The notes under the pieces are model-generated. The model did not search any database, was not told the DNA's origin, and saw nothing but the letters and a program-made list of their open reading frames with translations. This document shows, in pieces, positions 3,424 to 21,973 of a stretch of DNA of 64,000 nucleotides. The stretch comes from Rudaea cellulosilytica DSM 22992 (GTDB lineage Bacteria; Pseudomonadota; Gammaproteobacteria; Xanthomonadales; Rhodanobacteraceae), in NCBI RefSeq assembly GCF_000378125.1, contig NZ_KB899244.1, positions 62,001 through 126,000 on the forward strand. The letters run 5' to 3'. The position numbers were made by a program, and so were the translations under genes. The first letter of the stretch is position 1. Each line of letters opens with the position of its first letter.

Positions 3424-4821
3424 TCAGGGGCCGTGTGGCCGTGCGAGCTTTTCTGGGCTGAGAATTCCTTCCAGCGCTTCTTGCGTCAGTAATCCGCGTT
3501 GCAGAACGATGTGGCCGACGCCGGCGCCGGTCGCTTGTGCTTCGACTGCCACTTCCGTCGCCGCCACGTAACCAATATGCGGGTTCAACGCCGTGGCGAT
3601 GCCGATGGAGTTTTCGACCTGCTGACGCAAGCGATCCTTGTTCGCTGTTATTTCCACCACGCAATTCTTCGCCAGGGTTTCACAGCCGCGGCGAAGGTGA
3701 GAAAGGCTGCGGAATAGACTCAACGCAATAATCGGCTCGAACGCATTCAACTGCAGCTGTCCCGACTGGGCGGCAAAAGTGATGGTGACATCGTTGCCGA
3801 TGACTTCGAAAGCAATCTGGTTGACGACTTCGGGAATCACCGGATTGATCTTGCCCGGCATGATCGACGAACCCGACTGCCGCGGCGGCAGGTTGATCTC
3901 GCCGAGTCCCGCGCGCGGCCCCGATGCTAGCAGGCGCAGGTCGTTGCAGATCTTGCCGAGCTTCACCGCGACGCGCTTCAACGCGCCGGACAGATGCACG
4001 AACACGCCGCAGTCCTGAGTTGATTCGATCAAATCAGGAGCGGTGATGAGGTCGATGCCGGTCAACTCCGACAGCTTGCGCCGAACGAGGTCTGCGTAAC
4101 CCGGATGCGAGTTGATGCCCGTGCCGATCGCGGTCGCGCCAAGATTGATCTCGCGCAGGAAGGCCATCGCCTCGACAAGGCGCAGCATGTCCTCGTCCAT
4201 CATCACCGCATAGGTACCGAATTCTTGGCCGAGCGTCATCGGCACGGCGTCCTGCAGCTGCGTGCGTCCAACCTTGAGCACGTCGGCGAATTCCTCACGC
4301 TTGGCGAGGAACGCATTGCGCAATTCGGCCATCGCGACGAGCAGCGCCTGTGCCTGCGCCCACGCGGCAAGCTTCAACGCGGTCGGATAGACGTCGTTCG
4401 TGCTCTGGCCAAGGTTGACGTGCTCGTTGGGATGTAGATGACGGAAATCGCCTTTGCTATGCCCCATCCATTCGAGCGCACGGTTGGCGACGACCTCGTT
4501 CGCATTCATGTTCGTCGATGTGCCCGCACCACCTTGGATCACGTCGACGACGAACTGGTCGTGCAGCGCGCCGGCGCGGATCTCGGCACAGGCGCGAACA
4601 ATCGCATCCGTCCGCGGCGCATCGAGCAAACCCAGCTCGTTGTTGGCCAGCGCCGCAGCTTGTTTGATTGCGGCGAGCGCGGCGATCAGCTCAGGGTTGT
4701 GGCCGATACGCTCGCCGCTGATCGGAAAATTTTCGATCGCACGCAGCGTATGCACGCCCCAATAGACATCGGCAGGCACCTCGCGATCGCCGAGCAGATC
4801 GTGTTCGACTCGAAAGGTCAT
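3424..4821 (-). CDS. aspA: aspartate ammonia-lyase
   Basis: A 465-residue member of the aspartase/fumarase superfamily that converts L-aspartate to fumarate and ammonia in the cytoplasm. The N terminus (EHDLLGDREVPAD, then WGVHTLRAIENFPIS) is characteristic of aspartase rather than class II fumarase. The substrate-binding GQSTNDVYPTA segment is at about 138-148. The superfamily signature GSSIMPGKINPV is at 317-328, carrying the catalytic Ser318. The frame stays open upstream into the gabD gene; I start at the ATG at 4819-4821, where homology begins and the protein has normal length. It lies 7 bp after gabD and is the last gene of the long - strand run, where it would channel aspartate nitrogen and carbon to the TCA cycle. 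Confidence 0.93.
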   Translation of the reverse strand: MTFRVEHDLLGDREVPADVYWGVHTLRAIENFPISGERIGHNPELIAALAAIKQAAALANNELGLLDAPRTDAIVRACAEIRAGALHDQFVVDVIQGGAGTSTNMNANEVVANRALEWMGHSKGDFRHLHPNEHVNLGQSTNDVYPTALKLAAWAQAQALLVAMAELRNAFLAKREEFADVLKVGRTQLQDAVPMTLGQEFGTYAVMMDEDMLRLVEAMAFLREINLGATAIGTGINSHPGYADLVRRKLSELTGIDLITAPDLIESTQDCGVFVHLSGALKRVAVKLGKICNDLRLLASGPRAGLGEINLPPRQSGSSIMPGKINPVIPEVVNQIAFEVIGNDVTITFAAQSGQLQLNAFEPIIALSLFRSLSHLRRGCETLAKNCVVEITANKDRLRQQVENSIGIATALNPHIGYVAATEVAVEAQATGAGVGHIVLQRGLLTQEALEGILSPEKLARPHGP

Positions 4822-4828
4822 CGCAGGC

Positions 4829-6301
4829 TCAGTCCAGGCCGCCCTGGCACAGATATTTGATGTGCATGTATTCGTCGATGCCGTAACGCGAGCCTTCGCG
4901 GCCGTAGCCCGACGCCTTGATGCCGCCGAACGGGGCGGCCTCGGCGGCAACGGCGCCCTCGTTGATGCCGATCAGGCCCGACTCGAGCGCTGACGCGAGC
5001 CGCGCAATGCGGCGCACATCGCGCGTGTAGAAATACGCGGCCAGTCCGTATGGCGTGCCGTTGGCTTCGGCCACGACCGCGCCTTCGTCGTTGAAACGGG
5101 ACACGGGCACGACCGGGCCGAACGTTTCTTCGCAGGAACAGTCCATCGTCGCGGTCACTCCGGTCAGCACGGTCGGTTGGAAATAGTTCGGTCCGAGAGC
5201 GGGCAATGGTTCACCGCCGCTAACGACCTGCGCGCCTTTGGACAACGCGTCGCGCACGTGGCGCTCGACCTTTTCCACCGCACGCGCATTGATCAGCGGC
5301 CCGATCTGCGAAACGGGATCGCTCGCCGGGCCGACCTTGAGCGCAGCCACGCGCTTGACCAGGCGCTGCACGAAGTCGTCGTGCACTGCGTCGTGGACGT
5401 AGACGCGGTTCGGACACACGCAGGTCTGTCCGCCATTGCGGAACTTCGACGCCATCAGTCCGTCCACGGCGGCGTCGAGATCGGCGTCCTCGAAAACGAT
5501 GAACGGCGCGTTGCCGCCGAGCTCCAACGACAGCTTCTTCAGCGTATCGGCGCTGGCGCGCGCGAGATGCCGGCCGACCGGCGTGGAGCCGGTGAAGGTC
5601 AGCTTGCGCACGCGCGTATCGGCCAGCCAGACGTCGACGACTTCGGGCGCATGCGCGCGCGAAGCAGTGACGAGGTTGAGCACGCCAGCTGGCACGCCGG
5701 CTTCTTCGGCCAGCTTCGCCAATGCGAGCGCGGTCAGTGGCGTGTCCTCGGCCGGCTTGGCGACCACCGTGCAGCCGGCGGCCAGGGCCGGCGCGATCTT
5801 GCGCGCGATCATCGCCGCCGGAAAATTCCACGGCGAGATCGCGGCGATCACGCCGACCGGTTCCTTCACCGCGAACATCTGCCGTCCGCGCACCGGCGGC
5901 GGGATCACGTCGCCGTAGCTGCGTACCGCCTCGGCGGCGAACCATTCGACGTAGCTGGCGGCGTAGGCGATCTCGCCGATCGCCTCGGCGAGCGGCTTGC
6001 CCTGCTCGCGAGAGATCAGCTTGCCGAGATCTTCCTTGTGTTCGAGCAGCAGCGCATTCCAGCGCGCGAGGATGCGCGAGCGATCACGTGCGGGCACGGC
6101 GCGCCACGCGGGGAACGCCGCGTGGGCGGATTCGAGCGCAGCGCGTGCGTCGTCTGCGCCGCCATCCGGCACGCTCGCGAACGCCCGTGCGAGCGCGGGA
6201 TCCTCGACGTCATAGCGCGCGCCACTGGCAGCCTCGCACCAACGACCGCCGATGAAATGCTTGGAGCGCAACAGATCGTCACGTTGCAAAGTCAGAGACA
6301 T
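4829..6301 (-). CDS. gabD: NAD(P)-dependent succinate-semialdehyde dehydrogenase
   Basis: A 490-residue aldehyde dehydrogenase of the GabD clade, the usual length. Key residues are visible: Asn159 in SPWNF, Lys182 in AKPAEDTP, general base Glu260 in LELGGNAP and nucleophile Cys294 in GGQTCVCPNR. The second cysteine two residues later occurs in GabD-type enzymes. It oxidises succinate semialdehyde, or a similar omega-carboxy aldehyde, to the diacid. It follows the decarboxylating dehydrogenase gene after 82 bp and is almost joined to aspA, so the products of the pathway would be succinate and fumarate. Exact substrate is inferred from family; glutarate semialdehyde is an alternative. Confidence 0.88.
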   Translation of the reverse strand: MSLTLQRDDLLRSKHFIGGRWCEAASGARYDVEDPALARAFASVPDGGADDARAALESAHAAFPAWRAVPARDRSRILARWNALLLEHKEDLGKLISREQGKPLAEAIGEIAYAASYVEWFAAEAVRSYGDVIPPPVRGRQMFAVKEPVGVIAAISPWNFPAAMIARKIAPALAAGCTVVAKPAEDTPLTALALAKLAEEAGVPAGVLNLVTASRAHAPEVVDVWLADTRVRKLTFTGSTPVGRHLARASADTLKKLSLELGGNAPFIVFEDADLDAAVDGLMASKFRNGGQTCVCPNRVYVHDAVHDDFVQRLVKRVAALKVGPASDPVSQIGPLINARAVEKVERHVRDALSKGAQVVSGGEPLPALGPNYFQPTVLTGVTATMDCSCEETFGPVVPVSRFNDEGAVVAEANGTPYGLAAYFYTRDVRRIARLASALESGLIGINEGAVAAEAAPFGGIKASGYGREGSRYGIDEYMHIKYLCQGGLD

Positions 6302-6383: not shown

Positions 6384-7469
6384 TCAGCCCGCCGCAACGA
6401 GCCGAGCGATGGCCTCGCCTACTTCGCTCGTGGTTGCATTGCCGCCCAGGTCGGCCGTGCGCGGGCCGTCGCGCAGCACCTGTTCGATCGCGGCGAGGAT
6501 CGCATCATGCGCGGCGCGGCCTGCACCCTGCCCTTTGCCGAGGAAGTCGAGCATCAGCGCGCCCGACCAGACCATCGCGATCGGGTTGGCGATAGCCTTG
6601 CCGGCAATGTCCGGCGCGGACCCGTGCACGGGCTCGAACAGCGAGGGAAACGTACGATCGGGATTGAGATTGGCCGACGGAGCCAGACCGATCGTGCCGG
6701 TCGTCGCCGGGCCGAGATCAGAAAGAATGTCGCCGAACAGATTCGATGCGACGACGACATCAAAGCGACCCGGCTGCAGCACGAAGCGTGCGCACAGAAT
6801 GTCGATGTGCTGCTTGTCCACCGCCACCTGCGGATAGCCGGCGCCGATCGCGTCGGCACGCCCGTCCCACCACGGCATGCTGATCGCGATACCGTTGCTC
6901 TTCGTCGCCACGGTGAGGTGTTTGCGCGGACGCGAATTGGCCAGCTCGAACGCATAACGCAGCACACGATCGGCGCCGAAGCGCGAATACACCGACTCCT
7001 GGATCACGATCTCGCGCTCGGTGCCGGCATACATGATGCCGCCGAGCGAGGTGTACTCGCCTTCGGTGTTCTCGCGCACCACGTAGTAGTCGATGTCGCC
7101 CGGCTTGCGCCCGGCGAGCGGGCACGGCACGCCCTCGAACAGGCGCACCGGCCGCAAGTTGATGTACTGATCGAATTCGCGGCGGAACTTGAGCAGCGAA
7201 CCCCACAATGACACGTGGTCTGGCACTGTCGCCGGCCAGCCGACGGCGCCGAAATACAGCGCATCCATGCCTTGCAGTTGCGCCTTCCAGTCGTCGGGCA
7301 TCATCTGCCCGTGCTGTGCGTAGTAGTCGCAGTGTGCCCAGTCGAAATGGACGAAATCCAAATCGATACCGAAGCGCCGTGCGGCGGCCTGGAGCACGCG
7401 CATCCCCTCGGGCATGACTTCCTTGCCGATGCCATCGCCAGGCAGGAAGGCAATGCGATATTTGCTCAT
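6384..7469 (-). CDS. tartrate dehydrogenase / D-malate-type beta-decarboxylating dehydrogenase
   Basis: A 361-residue protein of the isocitrate/isopropylmalate dehydrogenase superfamily. The N-terminal LPGDGIGKEVMPEGM motif, YYVVRENTEGEYTSLGG segment (residues about 138-154), TKSNGI and the metal-binding SNLFGDILSDLGP segment are all present. The N-terminal half matches the tartrate dehydrogenase/decarboxylase and D-malate dehydrogenase (TtuC, DmlA) branch. The reaction is NAD-dependent oxidation of a 2-hydroxy diacid with loss of CO2, using Mn or Mg. The start ATG overlaps the stop of the ABC ATPase gene by 4 bp, so it is translationally coupled to the importer. Substrate choice among tartrate, D-malate and isopropylmalate-like acids is not resolved. 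Confidence 0.85.
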   Translation of the reverse strand: MSKYRIAFLPGDGIGKEVMPEGMRVLQAAARRFGIDLDFVHFDWAHCDYYAQHGQMMPDDWKAQLQGMDALYFGAVGWPATVPDHVSLWGSLLKFRREFDQYINLRPVRLFEGVPCPLAGRKPGDIDYYVVRENTEGEYTSLGGIMYAGTEREIVIQESVYSRFGADRVLRYAFELANSRPRKHLTVATKSNGIAISMPWWDGRADAIGAGYPQVAVDKQHIDILCARFVLQPGRFDVVVASNLFGDILSDLGPATTGTIGLAPSANLNPDRTFPSLFEPVHGSAPDIAGKAIANPIAMVWSGALMLDFLGKGQGAGRAAHDAILAAIEQVLRDGPRTADLGGNATTSEVGEAIARLVAAG

Positions 7470-9106
7470 GGTACGAAAACTCCTGTGGGCGCGGGCCTGG
7501 CGGCCAGCACTTCGTCAAGCCAGCCGGTGCGCAATTCGGGAACCGAGCGCGCCAGTTGTTCGTAATAGGGATGGTGAGGACCGCGTGCATAGTCTTCGCG
7601 TGCGATCTGCGCGAGCTTGCGCCCGTAGCGCATGACCACGATGGCGTCGCACACCGCACGCACGCTGTGCATGTCGTGGCTGATGAACAGATACGACGCC
7701 TTGACTTCGCGCCGCAACTCGCAAATCAGATCGAGAATGGCCGCGGCGACGACGGGGTCGAGCGCGGAAGTCACTTCGTCGCAGAGGATAAGGTCAGGCT
7801 GCGCGGCGAGCGCCCGCGCAAGGTTCACGCGTTGCTTCTGGCCGCCGGACAAGCCCACGCAGCTGCGCTCTGCGAGCGTCGCCGGCAGTTTGACCAAGTC
7901 GAGTAATTCGGCAACGCGACGCCGACGCGCGTTCGCGTCCATGTCGTGAAAAAAAGCGAGCGGTCGTTCGAGAATCTTCGCCACCGTATGCGCGGGATTG
8001 AGCGCGGTGTCGGCATGCTGGAACACGATCTGCACGCGACGCAGCGTCTCGCGGTCGCGCTGCGCCAGCGTCGCGGGCAATGGATGCCCGCCAAAGCGGA
8101 TCGTGCCGGCAGCGGGCGCGATCAACCCGGCGATGCAGCGCGCCAGCGTCGATTTGCCGGAACCGGATTCGCCGATCACACCGATGGCCTGCCCCGCATA
8201 CAACTGGATCTCGACGTCTTCGAGCACCGGGTGTTCGCACTTGCCGTCGCGCACGCGGCCATAGCCGGCCGACAGTGCGGTGACTTCGAGCAGCGGCATC
8301 GCAGAGGGTTGGGCGGACACGTCCGGCGCGCGCTCGCCGATGCGCGAGGCTGCGAGCAGGCTGCGCGTGTAGTCGTCTGCGGGCGAGGCAAGAATCTGCA
8401 CCGTGCTGGCACATTCGCGCATGCGGCCATGGCGCAGCACGAGAATACTATCCGCCATCTGCGCGACGACGGCGAGATCGTGGCTGACGTAGATCGCGCT
8501 GACGCCACGCTCGCGCATGGCGCGGCGGAATGCGGCGAGCACTTCGACCTGAGTCGTCACATCGAGCGCCGTGGTCGGCTCGTCGAAGATGACGACGTCC
8601 GGATCGGCGATCAGGGCCATCGCCGCCATCAACCTCTGCAACTGGCCGCCGGAAACTTCGTGCGGATAACGCTGACCAATCGTCTCGGCATCCGGCAGCG
8701 CCAGTTCGCGGAACAACGCGATTGCTTTGCGTTCAGCCGCAGCGCGCTCGAGCACGCCGTGCAGCAGCGCGGGTTCGACCACCTGATCGAGAAGCCGCCG
8801 CGAGGGATTGAACGAAGCCGCCGCGCTCTGCGCGATATAGGCGATCTTACGGCCGCGCAGCGCACGCTTGCCCGATTCGGCCAGCGTCAATACATCGACC
8901 TCGCCCACCCGCACACGGCCGCTGGCAATACGGCAGCCGCGACGCGCGTAACCCATCAGCGCAAGCGCGATGGTGGTCTTGCCGGAACCGGATTCACCGA
9001 TCAGTGCCAACACCTGCCCCGGCTCGACCGTGAAGCTGATGTCGTGCACGAGGCCGACGTCGCCCGCGACGATACGCAGGTTCTCCACTTCGATGCGCGC
9101 GCCCAT
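7466..9106 (-). CDS. dipeptide-type ABC transporter, fused double ATP-binding protein
   Basis: A 546-residue protein with two complete nucleotide-binding domains, equivalent to DppD fused to DppF. The first domain has Walker A GESGSGKTT at 37-45, signature VSGGQLQR and Walker B VVIFDEPTTALD. The second has Walker A GESGSGKST, signature LSGGQKQR and Walker B LILCDEVTSALD. Both catalytic glutamates are present. It powers uptake through the two permeases encoded just upstream. The start at 9106 is chosen because the stop of the permease gene shares one base with it (TGATG); the open frame continues upstream but overlaps the permease. Peptides, opines or nickel are typical cargo of the family. 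Confidence 0.92.
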   Translation of the reverse strand: MGARIEVENLRIVAGDVGLVHDISFTVEPGQVLALIGESGSGKTTIALALMGYARRGCRIASGRVRVGEVDVLTLAESGKRALRGRKIAYIAQSAAASFNPSRRLLDQVVEPALLHGVLERAAAERKAIALFRELALPDAETIGQRYPHEVSGGQLQRLMAAMALIADPDVVIFDEPTTALDVTTQVEVLAAFRRAMRERGVSAIYVSHDLAVVAQMADSILVLRHGRMRECASTVQILASPADDYTRSLLAASRIGERAPDVSAQPSAMPLLEVTALSAGYGRVRDGKCEHPVLEDVEIQLYAGQAIGVIGESGSGKSTLARCIAGLIAPAAGTIRFGGHPLPATLAQRDRETLRRVQIVFQHADTALNPAHTVAKILERPLAFFHDMDANARRRRVAELLDLVKLPATLAERSCVGLSGGQKQRVNLARALAAQPDLILCDEVTSALDPVVAAAILDLICELRREVKASYLFISHDMHSVRAVCDAIVVMRYGRKLAQIAREDYARGPHHPYYEQLARSVPELRTGWLDEVLAARPAPTGVFVP

Positions 9107-9978
9107 CAGCGCACCGCCTTGCGCGCATCGCGCCCGGGCAACGCGTCGACGACAAGATTGACCGCCATCGTGAGCGTGGCGATCGCCAGCGCCGGTGCGA
9201 CGACGGCGAGGCCGCCTTCCCACAATGCGCCGAGGTTTTCGCGCACCAGCGTGCCCCAATCCGCCGCGGGCGGCTGCACGCCGAGGCCGAGGAAGCTCAG
9301 GCTGGCGAGCAGCAGCACGACGTAGACGAAACGCAGGCCGAGGTCGACAAGCATCGGCGCCGCAATATTCGGTAGCACCTCATGCAGCATCAGATACCAG
9401 CGCGATTCGCCGCGCGTGCGCGCAACCACCACGTAGTCGAGGGCGGCAACATTCACGGCGAGCGCGCGCGCGATTCGGTACGCGCCGGGCACGTAAATGA
9501 CGGCCGCGGTCGTCACCAGCAGCGGAACGGACGTGCCAAACGCGGCGACCATGATCAGCGCGAACAGCTTGCTCGGAATCGAAATCAGCGTATCCATGCC
9601 GCGGCTCAGCACGGTGTCGAGCCAGCCACCGCTGACCGCGGCGAGCAGCGCGAAACCGGTGCCGACGGCGCTGGCGCCCACCGCGGCGACCAACGCCACG
9701 ACGACGGTGTAGCGTGCGCCGAGAAGCACACGTGCGAGCATGTCGCGACCGAGATAGTCGGCACCGAGCCAGTGCCCGATTTGCGCCGGCGCAAATACCG
9801 GTAATCCGCCGATGTCCTGTGCACCCGCCGATATCCACGACGGGGCCGCAAGTGCGACCAGCAGCCACGCCAGGATGACGAGCAGCCCGAGTGTGCCGGG
9901 CACGCCGAGGCCGAACACGCCCGAGCGGCGGCGTGCAGACGCAGCGGAAGCGGACCGGGCAGGAACCGATGCGTTCAT
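9106..9978 (-). CDS. dipeptide-type ABC transporter permease (DppC-like)
   Basis: A 290-residue inner-membrane permease. After a basic, Ala/Ser-rich N terminus comes a first membrane segment, then the periplasmic region with GHWLGADYLGRDMLARVLLGAR, a DppC hallmark. The BPD permease domain follows with at least five membrane segments. The EAA-type loop for docking to the ATPase is at VARTRGESRWYLMLHEVLPNI. It overlaps the upstream permease gene by 4 bp and the downstream ATPase gene by 1 bp. With the partner permease it forms the membrane channel of the importer in this operon. Confidence 0.92.
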   Translation of the reverse strand: MNASVPARSASAASARRRSGVFGLGVPGTLGLLVILAWLLVALAAPSWISAGAQDIGGLPVFAPAQIGHWLGADYLGRDMLARVLLGARYTVVVALVAAVGASAVGTGFALLAAVSGGWLDTVLSRGMDTLISIPSKLFALIMVAAFGTSVPLLVTTAAVIYVPGAYRIARALAVNVAALDYVVVARTRGESRWYLMLHEVLPNIAAPMLVDLGLRFVYVVLLLASLSFLGLGVQPPAADWGTLVRENLGALWEGGLAVVAPALAIATLTMAVNLVVDALPGRDARKAVR

Positions 9979-10931
9979 CGGGCGTGGCGCAACCGCGGGT
10001 TGGCCAGGATGCCGATCACGTCGGCGATCAGCACGAGCAGCAGATAACCGGCACAGAAGATCATCGTGCAGGTCTGCACCAGCGGCATGTCGCGCTGGCT
10101 GACGCCGTCGACCATCAGCTTGGCGACGCCGGGATAGTGGAAGATCGTCTCGACGATGATCACGCCGCCGAGCAGGTACGACGTGCTCAGGGCAACGGCA
10201 TTGGCGATCGGCCCGATCGCATTCGGCATGGCCTCACGCAGGACGAGGCGCAGCGGCGGCACGCCCTTCAGCCGCGCCATTTCGATGTACGGCGCATCGA
10301 GTTGGTCGGCAAGCGCCGCGCGCGTCATGCGCATCATCTGCGCAACGACCACGCAGCACAGCGTCAGCACCGGCATCACGAATACGCGCGCGGCGCCGGA
10401 CAGCGAATCGATGTCGCTGGCATAGGACAGCGCCGGCAGCCAGCCGAGCTTGACCGAAAGCAGCAGCACGGCGAGCGTGGCGATGAGGAATTCCGGCACC
10501 GAGACGAGCACGACCGCGCCATTGTTGAGCAAGCGATCGAGCCAGCCGCCGCGGAACACTGCCGCGAGCGTGCCGAGCAGCAGTGCGAGCGGCACTGCGA
10601 TCACCGCAGTTACCGCCGCGAGCAGCAGCGAGTTCGGCAAGCGGTTGCCGATCAACTCCATCACCGGCGCATCGCTGACCAGCGAACGACCCGGATTGCC
10701 GGTGACGAGTCCGCCAAGCCAGTGCAGGTAGCGCAACGGCAGCGGTTGATCGAGGCCCATCTGCGTGCGCAGCGCGGCCAGCGTTTCCGGCGTTGCGTCC
10801 TGGCCGAGCAGTTCCTGCGCGGCATCGCCGGGTAGGACCGCGGTGATCAGGAACACGACGACCGACACGAGCAACAGCGAGATCAGCGCGAGCCCGAGAC
10901 GTTGCAGTATCAGACGCAGCAGCGGGCTCAT
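9975..10931 (-). CDS. dipeptide-type ABC transporter permease (DppB-like)
   Basis: A 318-residue inner-membrane permease with about six membrane helices. The N-terminal helix LGLALISLLLVSVVVFLITA is followed by the LPGDAAQELLGQDATPE periplasmic motif typical of DppB. The EAA loop is at EMARLKGVPPLRLVLREAMP. The start at 10931 overlaps the 3' end of the substrate-binding protein gene by 4 bp; a longer open frame upstream runs inside that gene and is not used. Partner of the DppC-like permease. Confidence 0.92.
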   Translation of the reverse strand: MSPLLRLILQRLGLALISLLLVSVVVFLITAVLPGDAAQELLGQDATPETLAALRTQMGLDQPLPLRYLHWLGGLVTGNPGRSLVSDAPVMELIGNRLPNSLLLAAVTAVIAVPLALLLGTLAAVFRGGWLDRLLNNGAVVLVSVPEFLIATLAVLLLSVKLGWLPALSYASDIDSLSGAARVFVMPVLTLCCVVVAQMMRMTRAALADQLDAPYIEMARLKGVPPLRLVLREAMPNAIGPIANAVALSTSYLLGGVIIVETIFHYPGVAKLMVDGVSQRDMPLVQTCTMIFCAGYLLLVLIADVIGILANPRLRHAR

Positions 10932-12544
10932 GCGTCCCACCATACGTGTTCGGCGAACTCGTAGCCCATCAGCCCGCCGACCGGAATCGTCGACAAGCCC
11001 TTCAGACGCGCGTTGTGCGCGTCGAGCGAAGAAAGGAACAGCGGAATCGCCACGCCACCCTTTTCGTGGATCATCATCTGCATGTCGGCGTACATCGCCT
11101 TGCGCTTGGACTCGTCCACTTCGGAACGTGCGGCCACGAGCAACTGGTCGAACTGCGGATCCTTCCAGTGCGCGTCGTTGTTGACCGCACGGGACTCGAA
11201 GAACTCGGTCAATACCGCGTCGGCGTTGGGCCGTGGATTGACATTGCCCCAGCCCACCGCGCTCTTGCCCCAGTAGTGGGACCAATAGCCGTCCGGCGGC
11301 ATGCGTTGCAATTGCAGATTCATGCCGATGCGATTCGCGCTTTGCTGCAGCGCCAGCGTCATCTCGACGCTGAGATTCGCCACGGGCGAGGCGACGACGG
11401 GAATCGGCGTATTGCCCAGGTCGCTGCGCTCGAAGTGATAGCGCGCCTTGTCGAGATCGAGTTCGCGCTGCGGCAGGCCGGCGAAGTAGAAACGGTTGGA
11501 CGGATGGATCGGCTGATCGTTGGCGACGATGGCATTGCCGAGCGCGACCGACTCGGCGATGCGCGCGCGATCGAACAGCAGCTTGATCGCGATGACGAAA
11601 TCCGCGTTGCTGCCGGGCGCCATGTCCTGACGCATCGCGAGATCGCTGTACTGGCCCGACGACTGGCGGAACACGGCGAATCCCGGCGCGCCTTCCACGC
11701 GCCGCACCGAGCGCGGATCGAGCGCGGCGACGAGATCGAGGTCGCCCGACAGCAGCGCGTTGACGCGCGCGCCTTCGTCGCCTAGGCCGGCAAGTTCGAC
11801 CTCGTCCACGTACGGGCGACCTTCGCGCCAGTAATCGCGGTTGCGTACCACGATCGAGCGCAGGCCGCGCTTGAATTCCTTGAGCTTGAACGGGCCGGTG
11901 CCGATTCCAGAGTTGAAGTCGCGCGTGCCGGCGGGAACGATGGCGAATGGGAACGTCGCCAGCGTCGCCGGCAGGTCGGCGTTGGACTGGTGCAGCAGGA
12001 CTTCGACTTCGCCGGGCGCGGACGCGCGCACGCTGTCGATCTGGTCGGCGAGCACTTTTGCGCGCGAAATCGTTGCCGGATCCTTATGCCGCATCAGCGA
12101 GAACACGACGTCCTCCGCGCGCAGCGCGCGACCGTCGTGAAAATGCACGCCGCCGCGCAGCTTGAACGTCCAGCGCTTCGCATCGTCGCTGTCGAAACGC
12201 TCGGCCAGCGCGGGCTGCGGAGCGAGACTGGCATCGAAGCTCGTCAGGCAGTTGTAGAGCATGCGCGAACGCGCATAGTCGGTCTGATTCGAGAGGCGTG
12301 CAGGATCGAGCGTATCGGCGATCGACGAGGCAGCGCTGGCTACGCGCACACGGCCGCCGTAGCGCGGCTGTGCCGCCGCGACGCCTTGCGCAAGCGCGGC
12401 GATGCGATGCGACGCGGCCAGCGCCATGCCGGCACCGGCCAGCATCTTCAACACATCGCGACGCGAAGCGCCGCGCGCGAGCGCATCGAGGACACGACCA
12501 CTGTCGGCCGTTCCGAGAAGATCGCGCAGGCGTGGATCGCTCAT
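10928..12544 (-). CDS. Tat-exported extracellular solute-binding protein, family 5 (DppA/OppA type)
   Basis: A 538-residue periplasmic binding protein. It has a long N-terminal region with a twin-arginine signal (SRRDVLK followed by a hydrophobic LAGAGMALAAS stretch, residues about 27-45), so it is probably exported folded by the Tat system. The SBP family 5 domain follows, with the LDPARLSNQTDYARSRMLYN segment and a TGPFKLKEF motif. Tat export of family-5 binding proteins is known for opine- and peptide-type systems in several proteobacteria. It supplies the ligand specificity of the importer; the ligand itself is unknown. The gene starts 13 bp after the HAD hydrolase gene and overlaps the DppB gene. 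Confidence 0.9.
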   Translation of the reverse strand: MSDPRLRDLLGTADSGRVLDALARGASRRDVLKMLAGAGMALAASHRIAALAQGVAAAQPRYGGRVRVASAASSIADTLDPARLSNQTDYARSRMLYNCLTSFDASLAPQPALAERFDSDDAKRWTFKLRGGVHFHDGRALRAEDVVFSLMRHKDPATISRAKVLADQIDSVRASAPGEVEVLLHQSNADLPATLATFPFAIVPAGTRDFNSGIGTGPFKLKEFKRGLRSIVVRNRDYWREGRPYVDEVELAGLGDEGARVNALLSGDLDLVAALDPRSVRRVEGAPGFAVFRQSSGQYSDLAMRQDMAPGSNADFVIAIKLLFDRARIAESVALGNAIVANDQPIHPSNRFYFAGLPQRELDLDKARYHFERSDLGNTPIPVVASPVANLSVEMTLALQQSANRIGMNLQLQRMPPDGYWSHYWGKSAVGWGNVNPRPNADAVLTEFFESRAVNNDAHWKDPQFDQLLVAARSEVDESKRKAMYADMQMMIHEKGGVAIPLFLSSLDAHNARLKGLSTIPVGGLMGYEFAEHVWWDA

Positions 12545-12557: not shown

Positions 12558-13223
12558 TTACAGGCCGACGAGCGCGGCCAAACCGCCGGCGTCGGCGATC
12601 TCGGTGTAGCCGTATTCGGGATTGCCGGGGCCATGGCCGCGGTTGATCCAGGCCTTGTCGCGAATGCCGATGTCGAACGCAGTCATCAAGTCGTAGCGCA
12701 GGCTCGAGGACACGTGCAGCATGTCTTCCGGATTGCAGCCGAGCGCATCGATCATATACTCGAACGGGCGCATGCGCGGCTTGTACGCCTGCGCCTGCTC
12801 GGCGGTGTAGACGCGATGGAACGGCACGCCGAGCAACTTCACGTTTTTCAGAATGTCTTTATCGTCGGCGTTGGACAAGATCACGAGCGGAATCTTGTCG
12901 GCGATCTTGGCCAGACCCGCTACGACATCCGGATGCGGCCCCCAGGTCGGCACCGCGTCGCAGATGCGCTGCGCTTCGGCGTCGATGTACTGAAATTTCC
13001 ATTTGCGCGTGAGCCGGCGCAGCGAGTTTTTCAACACGTCGCCGAGCGGCTGCCACGCACCGAGCACTTCGTCGAGACGATAGGCGGTGAAGTCGACGAG
13101 GAATCGCGGCATGTCCTCCGCCTTGACGCGGTCGGCGAAGATCTCGCGCGCCATATCGTTCGGCTTGTAGTTGATCAGCGTGCCGTAGCAGTCGAAGGAG
13201 ATGTACTTGGGCCTGAAGGTCAT
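12558..13223 (-). CDS. HAD family hydrolase, haloacid-dehalogenase type II-like
   Basis: A 221-residue cytoplasmic HAD hydrolase. Motif I is FDCYGTLIN with nucleophile Asp11; motif II is VILSNADD; the motif III lysine is in YKPRMRPFEY; motif IV region reads MLHVSSSLRYDLMTA. The family name is haloacid dehalogenase type II. However, genuine L-2-haloacid dehalogenases have a Ser-Asn-Ala-Trp-Asp arrangement in motif IV, and here the Asn is replaced, so a phosphatase or other HAD activity is more likely. The start at 13223 is chosen over an ATG 69 bp upstream because homology begins there. It lies 13 bp before the binding-protein gene and is part of the same transcription unit. Confidence 0.8.
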   Translation of the reverse strand: MTFRPKYISFDCYGTLINYKPNDMAREIFADRVKAEDMPRFLVDFTAYRLDEVLGAWQPLGDVLKNSLRRLTRKWKFQYIDAEAQRICDAVPTWGPHPDVVAGLAKIADKIPLVILSNADDKDILKNVKLLGVPFHRVYTAEQAQAYKPRMRPFEYMIDALGCNPEDMLHVSSSLRYDLMTAFDIGIRDKAWINRGHGPGNPEYGYTEIADAGGLAALVGL

Positions 13224-13350: not shown

Positions 13351-14103
13351 TCAAGCTGGCCGGTAGATCGCGTAGACCTTCTTTACGTATTCCCGGCTCT
13401 CCCAACTGCACTGCGCCCCCTGCTCGACGAGGAAGATGTCGCCCTTCTTGAACGTGCCTTCGCGGCCTGCGCCATCCACGAACGTCACGCTGCCAGCCAA
13501 CAGGTACATCAGTTCGAAATGACGGTAAGGCATGGCCAGGCGATGATAGGGAGTCGAATCCCAGGTTCCGCAGACGAATTCGCCATCGGGCGAACGGTAG
13601 TCGCTGTAGTTGCGGCAGCTCGGCGTCGGCCCCACCAGCAACTCGGCTAGCGGTGCGCCGGACGGCGTGAGCTGTGGGCTTCCCTCGACTGGGATCATGG
13701 CCGCCTTGTCGTCCGGGCCGCCGCTGCGACGCAGGAAGATAAGAGTGACCGCCTCATCGGCCGACCAGGCAATGCTCGCGCCACGGGTCAGCACGACACT
13801 GGCGTCAGGCTCCAGCGCTAGCGCACGCCCATCCGCTTCCAGCGTCACCCTGCCCTTGTGCACGATCAGGAATTCATCCGCCGGCATCGAGGCGACCTTA
13901 CCCCAACCTGGCGGCAGCTGCAGCACCCCGACTGTCACCGGTCCTTCCGTCGTGGGAAGCAGGCTGCGGCAGACGAGAAAAGGATCTTCGCCTCCTGCCA
14001 GGGCAACCGGCACTGTCGCTGCTTCGCTGTCCGCAAACGCACGAAGATCGACGAAGGATCGCACCACGGGCGCCGCTTTCGGAACAGGTTGAGGACTGCT
14101 CAT
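13351..14103 (-). CDS. bicupin protein with EutQ/DUF861-like C-terminal domain
   Basis: A 250-residue protein made of two cupin domains. The N-terminal one (residues about 60-125) includes LQLPPGWGKVASMPADEFLIVHKGRVTLEAD. The C-terminal one (about 165-245) includes CGTWDSTPYHRLAMPYRHFELMYLL and ends in WESREYVKKVYAIY. The C-terminal half matches the cupin_3 (DUF861) group found beside FAD-dependent amine or amino-acid oxidases in proteobacteria. No enzyme activity is established for these proteins; roles in binding or converting reactive oxidase products have been suggested. It is read in the same direction as the FAD oxidase 122 bp upstream and the HAD gene 127 bp downstream. Confidence 0.8.
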   Translation of the reverse strand: MSSPQPVPKAAPVVRSFVDLRAFADSEAATVPVALAGGEDPFLVCRSLLPTTEGPVTVGVLQLPPGWGKVASMPADEFLIVHKGRVTLEADGRALALEPDASVVLTRGASIAWSADEAVTLIFLRRSGGPDDKAAMIPVEGSPQLTPSGAPLAELLVGPTPSCRNYSDYRSPDGEFVCGTWDSTPYHRLAMPYRHFELMYLLAGSVTFVDGAGREGTFKKGDIFLVEQGAQCSWESREYVKKVYAIYRPA

Positions 14104-14225: not shown

Positions 14226-15551
14226 TCAAAACTCCGACACCTTGCCCCATTGCGATTTGTCGAAGCGGGACAGGCGGTATTGCGAGGTTTCGGCGATGGG
14301 CTTGCGCCCCAGCACCAAATCGGCGACGAGGTGCCCGGCACCGGGACCAATGCCGAAGCCGTGTCCGGAAAAACCCGCCGCCAGAAGCAGCCCTTTCACG
14401 CCGATATCACCGTCGATCACCGGAATGCCGTCCGGAGTGGAATCGATATAGCCGGCCCATTCCGCCTGCACCGGTACGTTTTGCAATTCCGGCAGCAAGG
14501 CGCGTGCACGTTTCAAGATCAAGTCGAGCGTATTGCGCGAGGGTCGCGGATCGAGGATGCGCATGGCTTCCATCGGTGTCGGACGATCCATCGCCCAGCG
14601 TTGGCGCGTTTCGAAACCGGCTTGCCATGCCTGCAATCCACCCGGGGAAAGTAGCCGCCAGCGTTTGGCGAACATCGGCAGGAAATGTTTCGCGGCGCCA
14701 ATCATGCCCGGAGTGGGATCGACTTTGCCGAAACCGGAAATGGCCAAGGTATGCGCGCCGTCACTGCGACGCGTCACGGAGACGGCCGATGTGTGCAGTG
14801 CCGCGGGCAGCCCTTTTGCACCGGGTGCGACGGACAATATCGAACTGCGTATCGCCGCCTGTGGAAACGCGATGCCGAGCTGACGCAGGAAACTCGCTGC
14901 CCATGCCCCGCCCGACAGGACGACCTGCCGCGTGCGGATGACGCCGCGCTCGGTGATCACGCCACAAACCGAGCCCGCTTGTCGTTCGATGCCGCGCGCG
15001 GCGCAGTTCTGCACGATCATGCCGCCGTGCTTGAGCACGCCCCGTGCGATCGTCGGAGCGGCGCTCGACGGGTCCGCGGTCCCGTCGGTCGGTGACCACA
15101 CGCCGCCCCTCCATGGTTTGCCCGTTGCCGCACCGCGTTCAGTGGCCTCCGCCGCGCTCAGCATGTACGTGACGACGCCTTCGCCGCGGGCGAACTTTCC
15201 CCAGGCCGCCCAGGTTTCGATCTCCTTCTCGTCGTTGGACAGGTAGAGAAGACCGCAACGCGAGAATCCGGGATTTTCACCGATGTCCGCGGCCATCTCC
15301 TCCCATAGCGCAAGGCTTCTGGTAGAAAGCGGCAATTCGCGCGCGTCGCGGTTCTGCTGGCGGCACCAGCCCCAGTTGCGGCTCGATTGTTCCGCGCCGA
15401 CGCGGCCTTTTTCGAGCAGGACGACGCGCTGGCCCGCGCGAGCCAGCCAATAGGCCGTACTCGTTCCGACGATGCCGGCACCGATCACCACGGTATCGGC
15501 ACTGGCCGGCAGCGCATCGGCGGTAACGACGGTCATCAACGGGGGAGACAT
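14226..15551 (-). CDS. FAD-dependent oxidoreductase, D-amino-acid dehydrogenase (DadA)-like, copy 1
   Basis: A 441-residue DAO-superfamily flavoprotein. The FAD-binding GxGxxG motif is VVIGAGIVGTSTAYWLA (about 21-37), followed by the LLEKG acidic strand end and SSRNWGWCRQQNRD. The C-terminal FAD segment is DSTPDGIPVIDG and GHGFGIGPGAGHLVADL. The family oxidises the C-N bond of amino acids or amines to imines. No membrane segment or signal peptide is visible. The start at 15551 has AGGAAAA upstream; an in-frame ATG at 15587 is possible. A paralogue of identical length (441 residues) at 31471-32796 is over three-quarters identical by eye. RidA, upstream in the same run, could hydrolyse the imine product. 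Confidence 0.87.
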   Translation of the reverse strand: MSPPLMTVVTADALPASADTVVIGAGIVGTSTAYWLARAGQRVVLLEKGRVGAEQSSRNWGWCRQQNRDARELPLSTRSLALWEEMAADIGENPGFSRCGLLYLSNDEKEIETWAAWGKFARGEGVVTYMLSAAEATERGAATGKPWRGGVWSPTDGTADPSSAAPTIARGVLKHGGMIVQNCAARGIERQAGSVCGVITERGVIRTRQVVLSGGAWAASFLRQLGIAFPQAAIRSSILSVAPGAKGLPAALHTSAVSVTRRSDGAHTLAISGFGKVDPTPGMIGAAKHFLPMFAKRWRLLSPGGLQAWQAGFETRQRWAMDRPTPMEAMRILDPRPSRNTLDLILKRARALLPELQNVPVQAEWAGYIDSTPDGIPVIDGDIGVKGLLLAAGFSGHGFGIGPGAGHLVADLVLGRKPIAETSQYRLSRFDKSQWGKVSEF

Positions 15552-15817: not shown

Positions 15818-17095
15818 TCAATGCAGCATGTCCTGCAGTTTGTAATAGGCGCCCACGAGCGGAAGAAACCAGGTCGGGCCGAAATGACCTGGAATGGCCG
15901 GCCAGTCGAAGTCCTTCCAGGGGTTCAGAGAGATGTTGCCGTCCATCACTTCGGCCATGACCTTGCCCATATAGGTCGACATCTGGGTGCCGTGCCCGCT
16001 GTACCCCATCGAGTAGAACAGGCCGTCGTGCTCGCCGGCGCGCGGCAGGCGATCGGCAGTCATGTCGACCATGCCGCCCCAGCAATAGTCGATGCGCACG
16101 TTCGTAAGCGAGGGGAAAACTTGCAACATCGAGCGTTGCAGAATCTTGCCGCTCTTGATGTCCGATCGGGCGCCGGACTTGGCAAAGCGGGCACGGCCGC
16201 CGAACAGCAGGCGGTTGTCGGGCGTGACGCGGAAGTAGCTGACGAAGTTCATCGTGTCGGCTGCGTTGCGGCGGCGAGGCAGAAGCCGATCGAGCAGGTC
16301 GATCGGCAGCGGCTCGGTGACGATGAGGAATGCCCCCACCGGCACGATGCGGCGCCGGTAGTACGAGAGCGGACCCACGGCCGAAGTGCCGGTGGCCAGC
16401 AATACCTGGCGCGCGCGGACAACGCCCTGCGGCGTCGACAGCTCGTGCGCATGGCCGTTCAGCCGTTTCAACCCTGTGACCGGCGCCGATTCGTGAATCT
16501 TCACCCCGCGCCGCGTGGCAGCGGTGGCAAGGCCATGGACGAACTTGCCCATGTGCATGGCCGCGCTTTTTTTGAAGATCATGCCGCCGAAATAACGATC
16601 CGAGCCGAGTTCGGAAGCCAGTTCCTGTCGTGAAACCATGTAGGTTTCGGGGTCGGCGCCGCGCGCGAGCATTTCCTGCGAACGCGCCAGCTTGTCGTAG
16701 TGGGCGGGTTTGGCGGCGAGCTTGAGCTTGCCCACGCGATGGAAATCGCAATCGATTCCTTCTTCGCGAATGATGGTTTCGACCGTATCGACTGCCGTGT
16801 CGAAGCTCTGATAAAGCCTTTTCGCCACAGTCTCGCCAAACCGGTTCGCCATGCCGAAGTAATCCTGGGCGAAACCGTTGTTGCACATGCCGCCGTTGCG
16901 GCCCGACGCGCAGCCGCCCACCATTCCCGCTTCCAACAGCATGACGCTCGCACCTTTTTTGGCCAGGGCGATCGAGGCGGACAAGCCAGTGAAACCGCCG
17001 CCGACAACGGCGACGCCGACTTCGCCTTCGACGGGGCCTTTCGCGCCGTCGCTGAAGCGCGGCGCCGTATCCAACCAATAGGGAGTCAGTTTCAT
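15818..17095 (-). CDS. FAD-dependent oxidoreductase, gamma-glutamylputrescine oxidase (PuuB)-like, copy 1
   Basis: A 425-residue DAO-superfamily flavoprotein of a different branch from its neighbour. It starts MKLTPYWLDTAP, typical of the PuuB/OrdL group, then the FAD motif VAVVGGGFTGLSASIALA (about 37-54) and the SGRNGG motif (about 69-74). Near the C terminus YCWGGMVDMTADRLP and YSGHGTQMSTYMG match the group. These enzymes oxidise the amino group of putrescine derivatives or related amines, giving aldehyde, ammonia and H2O2. The start at 17095 is where homology begins; upstream codons in the open frame are ignored. A diverged paralogue (about half identical by eye) lies at 33823-35118. A 266 bp gap separates it from the next oxidase gene. 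Confidence 0.86.
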   Translation of the reverse strand: MKLTPYWLDTAPRFSDGAKGPVEGEVGVAVVGGGFTGLSASIALAKKGASVMLLEAGMVGGCASGRNGGMCNNGFAQDYFGMANRFGETVAKRLYQSFDTAVDTVETIIREEGIDCDFHRVGKLKLAAKPAHYDKLARSQEMLARGADPETYMVSRQELASELGSDRYFGGMIFKKSAAMHMGKFVHGLATAATRRGVKIHESAPVTGLKRLNGHAHELSTPQGVVRARQVLLATGTSAVGPLSYYRRRIVPVGAFLIVTEPLPIDLLDRLLPRRRNAADTMNFVSYFRVTPDNRLLFGGRARFAKSGARSDIKSGKILQRSMLQVFPSLTNVRIDYCWGGMVDMTADRLPRAGEHDGLFYSMGYSGHGTQMSTYMGKVMAEVMDGNISLNPWKDFDWPAIPGHFGPTWFLPLVGAYYKLQDMLH

Positions 17096-18062: not shown

Positions 18063-18065
18063 GCC

Positions 18066-19268: not shown

Positions 19269-19305
19269 GATTGCTCCCTCACGTGGAGCGGAGTTGCAGT
19301 AAAGG

Positions 19306-19710
19306 TCAGTCGGAATTGCTTGCCGCGATGGCGTCGATTTCGATCAGGCAGCCGTAGTGGAGTTCGGGGACTGGAACCACGGAACGGGCCGGCCGCGCGT
19401 CGCCCAGCGCCGCGGTGTAAATCGCGTTGAACTTCGGCCAGTTTTCGATGCCGACGATATAGGCCGTCACTTTCAGCAGCCGCTGCGGATCGCTGTTCGC
19501 CGCACGCAAGATGGCGAACAGGCTGTCCAGCGCCATCTTCGCTTGCTCTTCAAAGTTGGCGTCGATCTTGTGCGTTCCGTCTGGACTCAGCGGAAGCTGC
19601 CCGGACACATAAATCAAGCCGCCGTGCCGGATCGCCTGCGAATAGTGACCCTTAGGAGTGGGCGCACCCTTCGTCGAAATGCTCTCGATGACTGCCCCAT
19701 CCGCGTCCAT
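19306..19710 (-). CDS. RidA family enamine/imine deaminase
   Basis: A 134-residue RidA/YjgF protein. Family features are GHYSQAIRHGGLIYVSGQLP (about 21-40), the QAKMALDSLFAILRAANSD helix and the ARSVVPVPEL segment holding the conserved substrate-binding arginine. RidA hydrolyses reactive enamine/imine intermediates released by PLP enzymes and amino-acid oxidases, giving keto acids and ammonia. Start: the ATG at 19708-19710 shares a base with the stop of the upstream PLP enzyme (TGATG), preferred over an ATG 24 bases further up. Its position directly after a D-serine dehydratase-like gene and ahead of two FAD oxidases fits a protective role in this pathway. Confidence 0.9.
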   Translation of the reverse strand: MDADGAVIESISTKGAPTPKGHYSQAIRHGGLIYVSGQLPLSPDGTHKIDANFEEQAKMALDSLFAILRAANSDPQRLLKVTAYIVGIENWPKFNAIYTAALGDARPARSVVPVPELHYGCLIEIDAIAASNSD

Positions 19711-20891: not shown

Positions 20892-20982
20892 TCACCGTAT
20901 CTCCGTAGCCGTACCGCCTGGGTTTCTCCCGTACCGGTAGCGGGAATCGCACTCGATCAGGATTGGCTTGCATCTTGAGCGA

Positions 20983-20997
20983 TAGTTATGAAGACTA
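20983..20997. promoter_or_regulatory. candidate operator dyad in the lysR / DSD1-like intergenic region
   Basis: TAGT at 20983-20986 and ACTA at 20994-20997 form a short inverted repeat with a 7-bp spacer in an AT-richer patch of the divergent intergenic region (20892-21037). LysR regulators usually bind a T-N11-A dyad in such positions. The half-site spacing here is close, but the outermost T and A are 13 apart, so the match is imperfect. The arms are only 4 bp and could arise by chance; the location is the main argument. Confidence 0.3.
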
Positions 20998-21037
20998 CAA
21001 TTAATCTGAGATGCATATTTTCTTAAGGTATACATTA

Positions 21038-21973
21038 ATGATTACGTCGGAAGATCTGTTGTTCTTCAACGTGGTGGCCAACTCGATGTCGCTTGCGGAA
21101 AGCGCACGCAAACTTGACGTCACACCACCGGCCGTGACCCAACGCTTGCGCGCGTTGGAGAAACGCGTGGGCATGCGCCTCGTCGATCGTTCCGGCCGCG
21201 GGCTGAGCCTCACCGACGAGGGCGCGCTGGTCGCAGCGCACGGCATGGCAGTGGTCGATGCGATCGAAACTCTCTCCGATACGCTGGCGAGCCGCAGGAA
21301 CGCCGTCAGCGGTCACCTGCGTATCGTCGCTCCACACGGTTTCGGTCGTCTGCACGTAGCACCCGTGGTGGATGCCTTCGCCAAGGCGCATCCCGGCGTC
21401 ACGGTCACGCTGGATCTGTCCGACAACCCAGCTGCGGGAATGCTCGAGAGCAGCGACGTCACCGTCCACATCGGGCCGCTTGGTCCGCTGGACCAGATCG
21501 TGACCACGCTCGCTCCCAACCGTCGGATTCTCTGCGCCAGTCCCGAGTATCTGGCCGGGGTTTCCCCTCTCCGTTCACCTGCCGATCTGATGCGGCATCG
21601 CTGCCTCGTCGTGCGCGAGAACGCGGAAGACGTGACGCTTTGGCGGTTCCGCCACGCGTCCCGGGGTCAGACCACTGTACGCATCCATCCCACGATGTCG
21701 AGCAACGACGGCGCCGTCGTGCGCGAATGGGTCATCGCCGGCCAGGGCATCGCGATCCGATCGGAATGGGACGTCGCCGGTGATCTAGCGCGTGGCCGGC
21801 TGAAACAAGTGCTGCCGAGCTGGGAGCCGCCTGCCGCCGCCGTGGTGGCGATGCTGGGGACGCGCCACGGAAGAAGCGCACGGACCACGGCATTCCTGAC
21901 CAGCCTGCGACAGTCACTCACTCCCCCACCGTGGCGGCAGAGAGATTTCGCAGAGCCATCGAGGAAACGCTGA
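21038..21973 (+). CDS. LysR family transcriptional regulator
   Basis: A 311-residue LysR-type regulator. The winged helix-turn-helix is at about 5-64 (FFNVVANSMSLAESARKLDV, then TPPAVTQRLRALEKRVGMRL). The effector domain follows from about residue 90 (HLRIVAPHGFGRLHVAPVVDAFAKAHP). The ATG at 21038 is chosen because AAGG lies 10 bases upstream and the HTH begins at the normal distance; an ATG 27 bases upstream is possible. It is divergent from the 15-gene - strand run, the classic arrangement for a LysR controlling its neighbour, and is most likely the regulator of that run. The inducer is unknown. Confidence 0.92.
   Translation: MITSEDLLFFNVVANSMSLAESARKLDVTPPAVTQRLRALEKRVGMRLVDRSGRGLSLTDEGALVAAHGMAVVDAIETLSDTLASRRNAVSGHLRIVAPHGFGRLHVAPVVDAFAKAHPGVTVTLDLSDNPAAGMLESSDVTVHIGPLGPLDQIVTTLAPNRRILCASPEYLAGVSPLRSPADLMRHRCLVVRENAEDVTLWRFRHASRGQTTVRIHPTMSSNDGAVVREWVIAGQGIAIRSEWDVAGDLARGRLKQVLPSWEPPAAAVVAMLGTRHGRSARTTAFLTSLRQSLTPPPWRQRDFAEPSRKR

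Follow-up and report, generated by a model that had tools for sequence, protein, structure and literature searches.

Introduction

Which compound is consumed by a bacterium that encodes, almost side by side, an importer, several flavin oxidases, acetyltransferases, an imine deaminase and a hydrolase of the HAD family? The question is raised by Rudaea cellulosilytica DSM 22992, in which we analyzed a stretch of 64,000 nucleotides (the window; positions 62001-126000 of contig NZ_KB899244.1, within a 4.34-Mb genome). A sequence-only reading of the window had described a run of 15 genes headed by a divergent LysR gene and had proposed the import and oxidative breakdown of a D-amino acid, opine-like or hydroxy-amino compound. 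We find a conserved catabolic locus, as seen in gene content, protein families, co-occurrence and gene order, and the region from 3.4 to 39.8 kb is almost certainly one functional unit. Its HAD hydrolase resembles enzymes that open the ring of azetidine-2-carboxylate. As a substrate we tentatively favor an azetidine-containing, opine-like plant metallophore, namely nicotianamine and/or the mugineic acids.

Conservation and extent of the locus

The HAD gene was used as the search anchor because the bicupin gene of the run is rare and lies near no annotated HAD in loci L005, L008 and L009. The bicupin was dropped, since, with the own genome counted, a search of 147 family genomes (E<=1e-20) gave a single carrier and one of 299 order genomes (E<=1e-15) gave three. 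A profile search of the genome collection with a HAD alignment matched at least 595 stretches, and at least 550 were confirmed as relatives (E<=1e-3), some genomes contributing more than one. Locus counts given below refer to the best 80 of these confirmed stretches and describe close relatives; an ortholog is a match of at least 40% identity inside the flanks of the HAD anchor, and 63 of the 80 loci hold at least 20 kb.

The core set for co-occurrence consisted of 11 genes, the HAD anchor included. The other ten are each present in 41-68 of the 80 loci, compared with 0-1 for each of 11 control open reading frames (ORFs), which are long ORFs from elsewhere in the window, picked by length and not each verified as a gene. 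Eight of 19 initial control ORFs had been set aside: seven were second-half locus genes or overlapping, mostly antisense, ORFs, and the eighth (28800-30131) overlaps the gene for the HupE-module membrane anchor. All 11 core genes occur in 20 loci, ten in 12, nine in 9 (nine or more in 41) and eight or fewer in 39. Gene order, counted over matched same-strand genes, is also kept: the solute-binding protein (SBP), permease 1, permease 2 and ATPase genes follow one another in 56 loci, and the longer series HAD-PuuB-SBP-permease 1-permease 2-ATPase-TTC-GabD is found in 23. The window has this series minus the PuuB step, its PuuB1 gene lying at 33.8 kb. Conservation of the neighborhood in relatives had been set as a test of the earlier reading, and the neighborhood is indeed conserved.

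The 15-gene run and its LysR gene are all intact ORFs at the positions first reported. They are listed here with bit scores over or against model cut-offs:

3424..4821 (-), aspartate ammonia-lyase, AspA-like (aspartate to fumarate); NF008909 734 over 510, TIGR00839 681.1 against 681.2; 1/80 loci
4829..6301 (-), semialdehyde dehydrogenase, GabD-like, proposed malic and/or aspartate semialdehyde dehydrogenase; TIGR01780 642.4 against 646.35; 46/80 loci
6384..7469 (-), tartrate/D-malate dehydrogenase (decarboxylating; TTC); TIGR02089 529.4 over 470.4, 3flk 593 bits; 41/80 loci
7466..9106 (-), fused double ATPase of an Opp/Nik-type importer; PF00005 twice; 55/80 loci
9106..9978 (-), importer permease 2; PF00528; 58/80 loci
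9975..10931 (-), importer permease 1; PF00528, PF19300; 59/80 loci
10928..12544 (-), family 5 SBP with twin-arginine signal; PF00496; 64/80 loci
12558..13223 (-), HAD type II hydrolase, proposed azetidine-2-carboxylate ring-opening hydrolase; TIGR01428 158.8 over 125.4, 3smv E 1.8e-23, best Foldseek match 8hp7
13351..14103 (-), EutQ-like bicupin; PF05899 twice; best PDB match 3myx (uncharacterised); 10/80 loci
14226..15551 (-), flavin oxidase 1, L-amino acid deaminase-like; PF01266, best PDB match 5fjm, 178 bits; 16/80 loci
15818..17095 (-), PuuB-like flavin amine oxidase copy 2 (PuuB2); PF01266; 65-70% identity in L011, L059 and L085
17157..18062 (-), two-domain GNAT acetyltransferase 1; PF13508/PF00583 and PF18014
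18066..19268 (-), DUF1624/HGSNAT membrane acetyltransferase 1; PF07786
19306..19713 (-), RidA imine/enamine deaminase; PF01042
19710..20891 (-), D-threo-3-hydroxyaspartate dehydratase-like pyridoxal phosphate enzyme (dsd1); best PDB match 3wqc, E 3e-117
21011..21973 (+), divergent LysR regulator; PF00126, PF03466; 85% in G357 beside dsd1

The coordinates agree with the claim that all 15 genes from 20891 down to 3424 lie on the minus strand with small overlaps. These measure 4 bp between ttc and the ATPase gene, between the permease genes, between permease 1 and the SBP gene, and between dsd1 and ridA, and 1 bp between the ATPase and permease 2 genes, with the listed starts of the ATPase and permease 1 genes read one codon further in. 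The gaps measure exactly 266, 122 and 127 bp. The run may comprise several transcription units, since the 127-bp gap marks the start of a separately conserved HAD-importer-ttc-gabD module. Scans for sigma-70 promoters (2 against 4.0) and for terminators (16 against 14.6) gave no excess.

Real as the run is, it was cut short at the LysR gene. The aldehyde dehydrogenase gene at 22095-23552 and the genes up to 39.8 kb co-occur with first-half genes in other genomes, and the part from 31.4 to 39.8 kb carries partners missing from the run (oxidase 2, GhrA-like dehydrogenase, PuuB1, GNAT 2, class III aminotransferase, Lrp and M20). The second half contains:

22095..23552 (-), second aldehyde dehydrogenase (aldh2), betaine/aminoaldehyde-dehydrogenase-like, below cut-offs; PF00171; 84% in G357, 82% in the G301 cluster
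23569..24783 (-), DUF1624/HGSNAT 2 (DUF1624b); PF07786; sole match at E<=1e-20 in G015, G301 and G357, always in the cluster
24880..27318 (-), TonB-dependent siderophore-type receptor (start uncertain); TIGR01783 323.3 over 223.5
28800..29408 (-), membrane-anchor protein of the DUF4198/HupE module; 73% in G357
29405..30142 (-), HupE/UreJ_2 membrane protein, possible metal permease; PF13795; 80% in G357; 3/80 loci
30163..30531 (-), small exported protein of the DUF4198/HupE module; no Pfam match; 77% in G357
30559..31305 (-), DUF4198 exported protein; PF10670; 4/80 loci
31471..32796 (-), flavin oxidase 2, 83% identical to oxidase 1
32811..33722 (-), D-2-hydroxyacid dehydrogenase, GhrA-like; PF02826; 50/80 loci
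33823..35118 (-), PuuB-like flavin amine oxidase copy 1 (PuuB1; the type adjoining HAD elsewhere); PF01266; 68/80 loci
35509..36387 (+), two-domain GNAT acetyltransferase 2, 38% to GNAT 1; 52/80 loci
36553..37992 (+), class III (omega) aminotransferase; PF00202; 49/80 loci
38071..38565 (+), Lrp/AsnC regulator; 95% in G357; 54/80 loci
38605..39789 (+), M20 aminoacylase/deacetylase; PF01546; 12/80 loci

An extensive counterpart comes from another family. In G357, 24 of the 30 parts lie within about 31 kb (101003-132452 of the stretch examined), with identities that include 90% for TTC, 94% for HAD, 85% for LysR, 83% for dsd1, 84% for aldh2, 78% for DUF1624b, 80% for HupE, 87% for PuuB1, 88% for the aminotransferase and 95% for Lrp. 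AspA, PuuB2, GNAT 1, the first DUF1624 gene, oxidase 2 and the GhrA-like gene have no match in that stretch. G301 holds 16 of the 30 parts, in a stretch that begins at the ATPase gene, together with a 2Fe-2S/FAD oxidase trio. In G015, from the window's own family, a 28-kb contig has the TonB and DUF1624b genes between SBP and PuuB-HAD. The pair dsd1-ridA with a nearby oxidase gene recurs in G357 (with LysR), L085 and L013, and AspA is rare near HAD, the single case among the 80 loci being joined by L013 and L014.

The HAD gene is found in 2 of 147 family genomes (E<=1e-60) and 28 of 398 phylum genomes, own genome included. Carriers include an Acidovorax from duckweed and plasmids of B. cepacia, Microvirga, R. 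leguminosarum, Variovorax and Paracoccus. RpoB, compared over a 1105-residue part, is 81% identical to that of G357 and 84% to that of G015, whereas HAD (94% vs 74%), Lrp (95% vs 77%) and SBP (81% vs 62%) are nearer to G357; TonB is about equal (65% in both). This pattern suggests lateral exchange of the locus, although the RpoB difference is small.

By hand count, about 24 of 40 plasmid matches listed (of 339 records) are labelled plant, nodule, root or plant food; rhizobial records dominate this uncontrolled sample, and no enrichment is claimed. Among the matches listed there are also 16 Klebsiella plasmid records with a HAD relative (E<=1e-20). On R. leguminosarum plasmid p3 (L013) the HAD cluster adjoins genes for homoserine kinase, homoserine dehydrogenase, aspartate ammonia-lyase, a DapA-like protein and four-carbon acid sugar proteins, as if several C4 routes were stacked together.

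The HAD hydrolase

The label HAD had named the right family and missed the key enzyme of the locus. The protein scores above the cut-off for type II haloacid dehalogenases, and its top two natural PDB sequences are 3smv (86.5 bits), which is named L-azetidine-2-carboxylate hydrolase, and 8hp5 (80.4 bits). The latter is titled (S)-2-haloacid dehalogenase; we group it with the azetidine hydrolases on the strength of its 56% identity to 3smv and of its mutant 8hp7, which was trapped with (2R)-4-amino-2-hydroxybutanoate. Identity of the window HAD to these enzymes is 30-33%. Twenty-eight of the 52 residues invariant in the HAD clade are common to both 3smv and 8hp5, among them D11, T15, K148 and D178, which are invariant across 25 aligned clade members and presumably have the catalytic roles of their L-DEX counterparts. 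From this kinship the HAD is likely the azetidine-ring-opening branch of the locus, and we consider ring opening to a (2R)-C4 hydroxy acid probable.

The next PDB groups are cis-epoxysuccinate hydrolase (46 bits) and L-DEX (31 bits), and the former raises a C4-acid alternative, in which an epoxysuccinate-type hydrolase would give tartrate to TTC with hydroxyaspartate as a side input. A Foldseek search with the HAD model (pLDDT 84.0) put 8hp7 first; azetidine hydrolases took ranks 1-5 and 7, and epoxysuccinate hydrolases followed closely at ranks 6 and 8-10. Fold search alone is non-discriminating for this protein, and the VIA-align comparison does not separate HAD-II enzymes. The LysR protein is TtdR-like, below cut-off, in line with tartrate. 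Against this stand the sequence scores (46 vs 86 bits) and the amine oxidases, GNAT and aminotransferase, which this route leaves unexplained; we hold it to be very unlikely.

A second HAD-II gene is present in 12 of the 80 loci (L021, L029, L033, L035, L037, L042, L047, L054, L056, L073, L075 and L078), most with an FDVVGTL motif and six with M20 as the next matched gene. The copy tested, from L056, is closest to the same two enzymes as the window HAD (131 and 117 bits vs 40 for the next) and is nearer to the solved azetidine-2-carboxylate hydrolases than the window HAD is. When the window's genome was searched with this copy, the window's own HAD was the sole match. In L013, L014, L083 and L092 a related HAD gene is accompanied by a divergent class III aminotransferase gene and one for an APH-like phosphotransferase; this may be a version of the pathway that works through a kinase and a phospholyase.

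Importer and receptor

Sequence and fold searches place the importer in the peptide/opine/nickel class (Opp/Nik-type), the SBP fold search being non-discriminating on its own. Its ATPase passes the NikD and NikE cut-offs, the SBP (126 against 600) and permeases (163-236 against 300-447 for the best models) fall below those for Nik/Cnt, and the twin-arginine RR of the SBP is invariant in 28 aligned sequences. The TonB receptor passes the siderophore-receptor cut-off. The three order relatives G015, G301 and G357 have one clear ortholog each, in the cluster (64-65%, >1000 bits; next best <=184 bits). Among the PDB matches listed for the receptor, one sequence (8b43, 8rm3, 8rmi) goes under two names, 'Metal-pseudopaline receptor CntO' and 'Ferrioxamine receptor FoxA', probably a naming slip, and the label 'pseudopaline receptor CntO' on the top matches was not used.

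A metal-chelating, opine-like ligand suits this combination, because the importer is of the opine/nickel/peptide class and the receptor of siderophore type. The same genes bear on a simpler idea, that the locus takes up, detoxifies and assimilates free L-azetidine-2-carboxylate, a toxic proline analogue. The kinship of the HAD would fit, and in Aspergillus azetidine-2-carboxylate is a substrate of a HAD hydrolase as well as of a GNAT acetyltransferase, as described in PMC8016842. A small free amino acid would require neither a TonB receptor nor four flavin oxidases nor an importer with a family 5 SBP, and we regard this explanation as improbable.

Other catabolic enzymes

The family names assigned earlier hold in profile searches, but those of DSD1, DadA, GabD, AspA and the tandem GNAT need correction. 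The nearest solved relative of dsd1 is D-threo-3-hydroxyaspartate dehydratase (395 bits), with 3llx ('predicted aldolase or racemase', 342 bits) between it and D-serine dehydratase (194 bits); a D-threo-3-hydroxyaspartate dehydratase-like activity is predicted. The tandem GNAT does comprise two GNAT domains, both of them in a single protein. AspA passes its subfamily model and is 0.1 bit short of the equivalog. TTC passes its equivalog and falls below PRK08194 (465 against 501). Four flavin oxidases are encoded in the window, and the PuuB2 type adjoins an aldh2 relative in L011 and L085.

The 'DadA' oxidase (oxidase 1) lies far under the D-amino acid dehydrogenase cut-off (NF001933 96.2 against 383), with an L-amino acid deaminase as nearest solved relative, which weakens the D-amino acid substrate proposed earlier. 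Catabolism of D-amino acids or dipeptides would still account for the alanine-racemase-fold dehydratase, the amine oxidases and a Dpp-like importer; since it leaves the HAD and ttc unexplained as well, we rate it the least probable of the readings considered here.

The C4 exits predicted earlier are supported, although the exit to succinate is unproven. The 'GabD' protein is just under the succinate semialdehyde dehydrogenase (SSADH) cut-off and also below PRK11241 (632 against 828), and in 34 of the 80 loci this SSADH-like gene is at most 500 bp from the same-strand TTC gene. The pairing suggests a malic semialdehyde route. A (2R)-hydroxy-C4 product of the HAD would fit this pairing and the presence of the aminotransferase in 49 loci and of the D-2-hydroxyacid dehydrogenase in 50.

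The same enzymes could also serve an N-acetylated polyamine-type route from putrescine, 2-hydroxyputrescine or diaminobutyrate, in which GNAT would acetylate, a PuuB-like oxidase and aldehyde dehydrogenase oxidize, M20 or a DoeB-like enzyme deacetylate, and the aminotransferase and GabD-like enzyme lead to succinate or malate. GNAT (52 loci), the PuuB type (68), the aminotransferase (49), M20 (12) and a DoeB-like gene (4) speak for it. The HAD (the search anchor), TTC and the Opp-type importer would go unexplained, and the deacetylases are in a minority of loci; such a route is slightly less credible than detoxification of the free amino acid. We rank the epoxysuccinate/tartrate, polyamine, D-amino acid and ectoine readings below that of a metallophore.

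Proposed pathway and substrate

The analysis supports an oxidative catabolic cluster coupled to an importer and equipped for acetyl transfer, imine clean-up and C4 exits; of the substrates suggested earlier, 'opine-like' is the best fit. We infer substrate, co-transcription and reaction steps, the steps from homology and context. The siderophore-type TonB receptor and the Opp/Nik-type ABC importer would take in the ligand. Its secondary-amine C-N bonds would be cut by PuuB-like and deaminase-like flavin oxidases, giving C4 semialdehydes or amino acids and azetidine-2-carboxylate; for nicotianamine the products would be aspartate semialdehyde and azetidine-2-carboxylate. The HAD would open the four-membered ring to (2R)-4-amino-2-hydroxybutanoate, from which the class III aminotransferase could form (R)-malic semialdehyde and the GabD-like enzyme D-malate. 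TTC, whose substrate we take to be D-malate from its family activity, would release pyruvate and CO2. Aspartate semialdehyde may pass through aspartate to fumarate via AspA, and hydroxylated units possibly through 3-hydroxyaspartate to oxaloacetate. GNAT would cap amines, M20 would remove the caps, and RidA would clear imines. Deoxymugineic acid already ends in a hydroxy-C4 amine unit. Co-occurrence of HupE and DUF4198 in a few relatives also counts for a metallophore.

Nicotianamine consists of three aminocarboxypropyl units, one of them closed to azetidine-2-carboxylate (PMC11794875). According to PMC7946895, mugineic acids are readily degraded by soil microorganisms, and PMC12723747 describes microbial degradation as a major limit on phytosiderophore efficacy in monocots. 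Proline has been put in place of azetidine to lower ring strain and biodegradation (PMC7946895, PMC12364333, PMC12723747). This analogue is broken down much more slowly than citrate (PMC7946895) and is reported to resist or slow microbial breakdown (PMC12364333, PMC12723747). The effect of ring strain on breakdown may be chemical rather than enzymatic. In the open-licence PMC literature we found no paper naming bacterial genes for nicotianamine or mugineic acid breakdown.

The chemistry could be the same with another azetidine- or hydroxyaspartate-containing opine or siderophore as substrate, such as a microbial metallophore, a peptide or an azetidine natural product. The TonB receptor, the Opp/Nik-type importer and the D-threo-3-hydroxyaspartate dehydratase-like enzyme are also compatible with this, and bacteria make azetidine-2-carboxylate peptides (PMC11794875). 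The number of phylum genomes and confirmed stretches with the HAD suggests an abundant compound, however, and M20 is present in 12 loci, with no systematic peptidase search made. We consider such a substrate unlikely, though the strongest of the competitors.

Nicotianamine and/or the mugineic acids remain our preferred substrates, a choice just short of an even call. With slightly more reserve, we propose that the locus could be a widespread, laterally exchanged basis of their use by bacteria, in which TonB and ABC systems would capture the metal-ligand, oxidation would cleave it into three C4 units and the HAD would open the ring, the step that proline replacement would block. If so, the known loss of plant iron chelators to soil microbes, so far without a genetic explanation, would have genes assigned to it, and bacteria bearing the locus would degrade deoxymugineic acid much faster than the proline analogue. 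The locus gives named candidates in many genomes (at least 550 confirmed HAD stretches; 28 of 398 phylum genomes), and one pathway would unite genes now annotated as generic oxidases, GNATs, a haloacid dehalogenase and SSADH.

Neighboring genes

Genes for cytochrome b561, HupE/UreJ_2 and DUF4198 sit inside the locus (28079-31305). DUF4198 with DUF1624 recurs in L060, L064, L070, L077 and G357, and HupE in the last four of these, hinting at metal handling. Directly after the locus (40315-46110) are genes for a PF02321 outer-membrane efflux protein, a CusB/HlyD-type adaptor and a 1065-residue pump, RND/CzcA-like by inspection; homologs occur in 0, 0 and 1 of the 80 loci, respectively, and a 33% pump homolog in the G301 cluster. 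On the other side, a cupin ORF (1446-2183) scores 198 with NF049940, the equivalog model for (R)-mandelonitrile lyase, whose cut-off is 140.

Comparison with known systems

Opine catabolic regions of Agrobacterium encode AgaA, MoaA and AccA importers and opine oxidases. The locus shares with them a family 5 SBP importer and flavin oxidases, and 30-31 of the 80 loci have the 2Fe-2S/FAD oxidase trio, which we liken to opine oxidase; unlike them, it adds a HAD hydrolase, TTC and a TonB siderophore receptor. Ectoine/diaminobutyrate catabolism (Doe/Eut) uses a class III aminotransferase, an Lrp-type regulator and a GabD-like dehydrogenase, and DoeB-like deacetylase, EutB-like and EutC-like genes occur in 4, 10 and 8 of the 80 loci, but the HAD, PuuB oxidases and tartrate dehydrogenase set the locus apart. 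In Acinetobacter, carnitine is converted via malic semialdehyde to D-malate, with a semialdehyde dehydrogenase gene next to TTC as in the locus, which has no carnitine oxygenase among its annotated genes. Cnt/Nik opine-metallophore and nickel import is similar in importer class, TonB siderophore receptor and an ATPase over the NikD/NikE cut-offs, and differs in that the permeases and SBP of the locus are below the Nik/Cnt cut-offs and catabolic enzymes dominate; no metallophore synthesis gene was noticed, no search aimed at one having been made. The L-azetidine-2-carboxylate hydrolases (3smv/8ywo, 8hp5-8hp7 and fungal AzhA) share with the window HAD the type II fold and the catalytic residues, and its best solved sequence relatives are among them. 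They differ from it in sequence, as given above, and in that the window HAD lies inside a large importer-oxidase locus. The Pseudomonas enzyme is periplasmic according to PMC8016842, whereas the window HAD is without an evident leader by inspection. In the same account the product of the Pseudomonas hydrolase is transaminated (PMC8016842).

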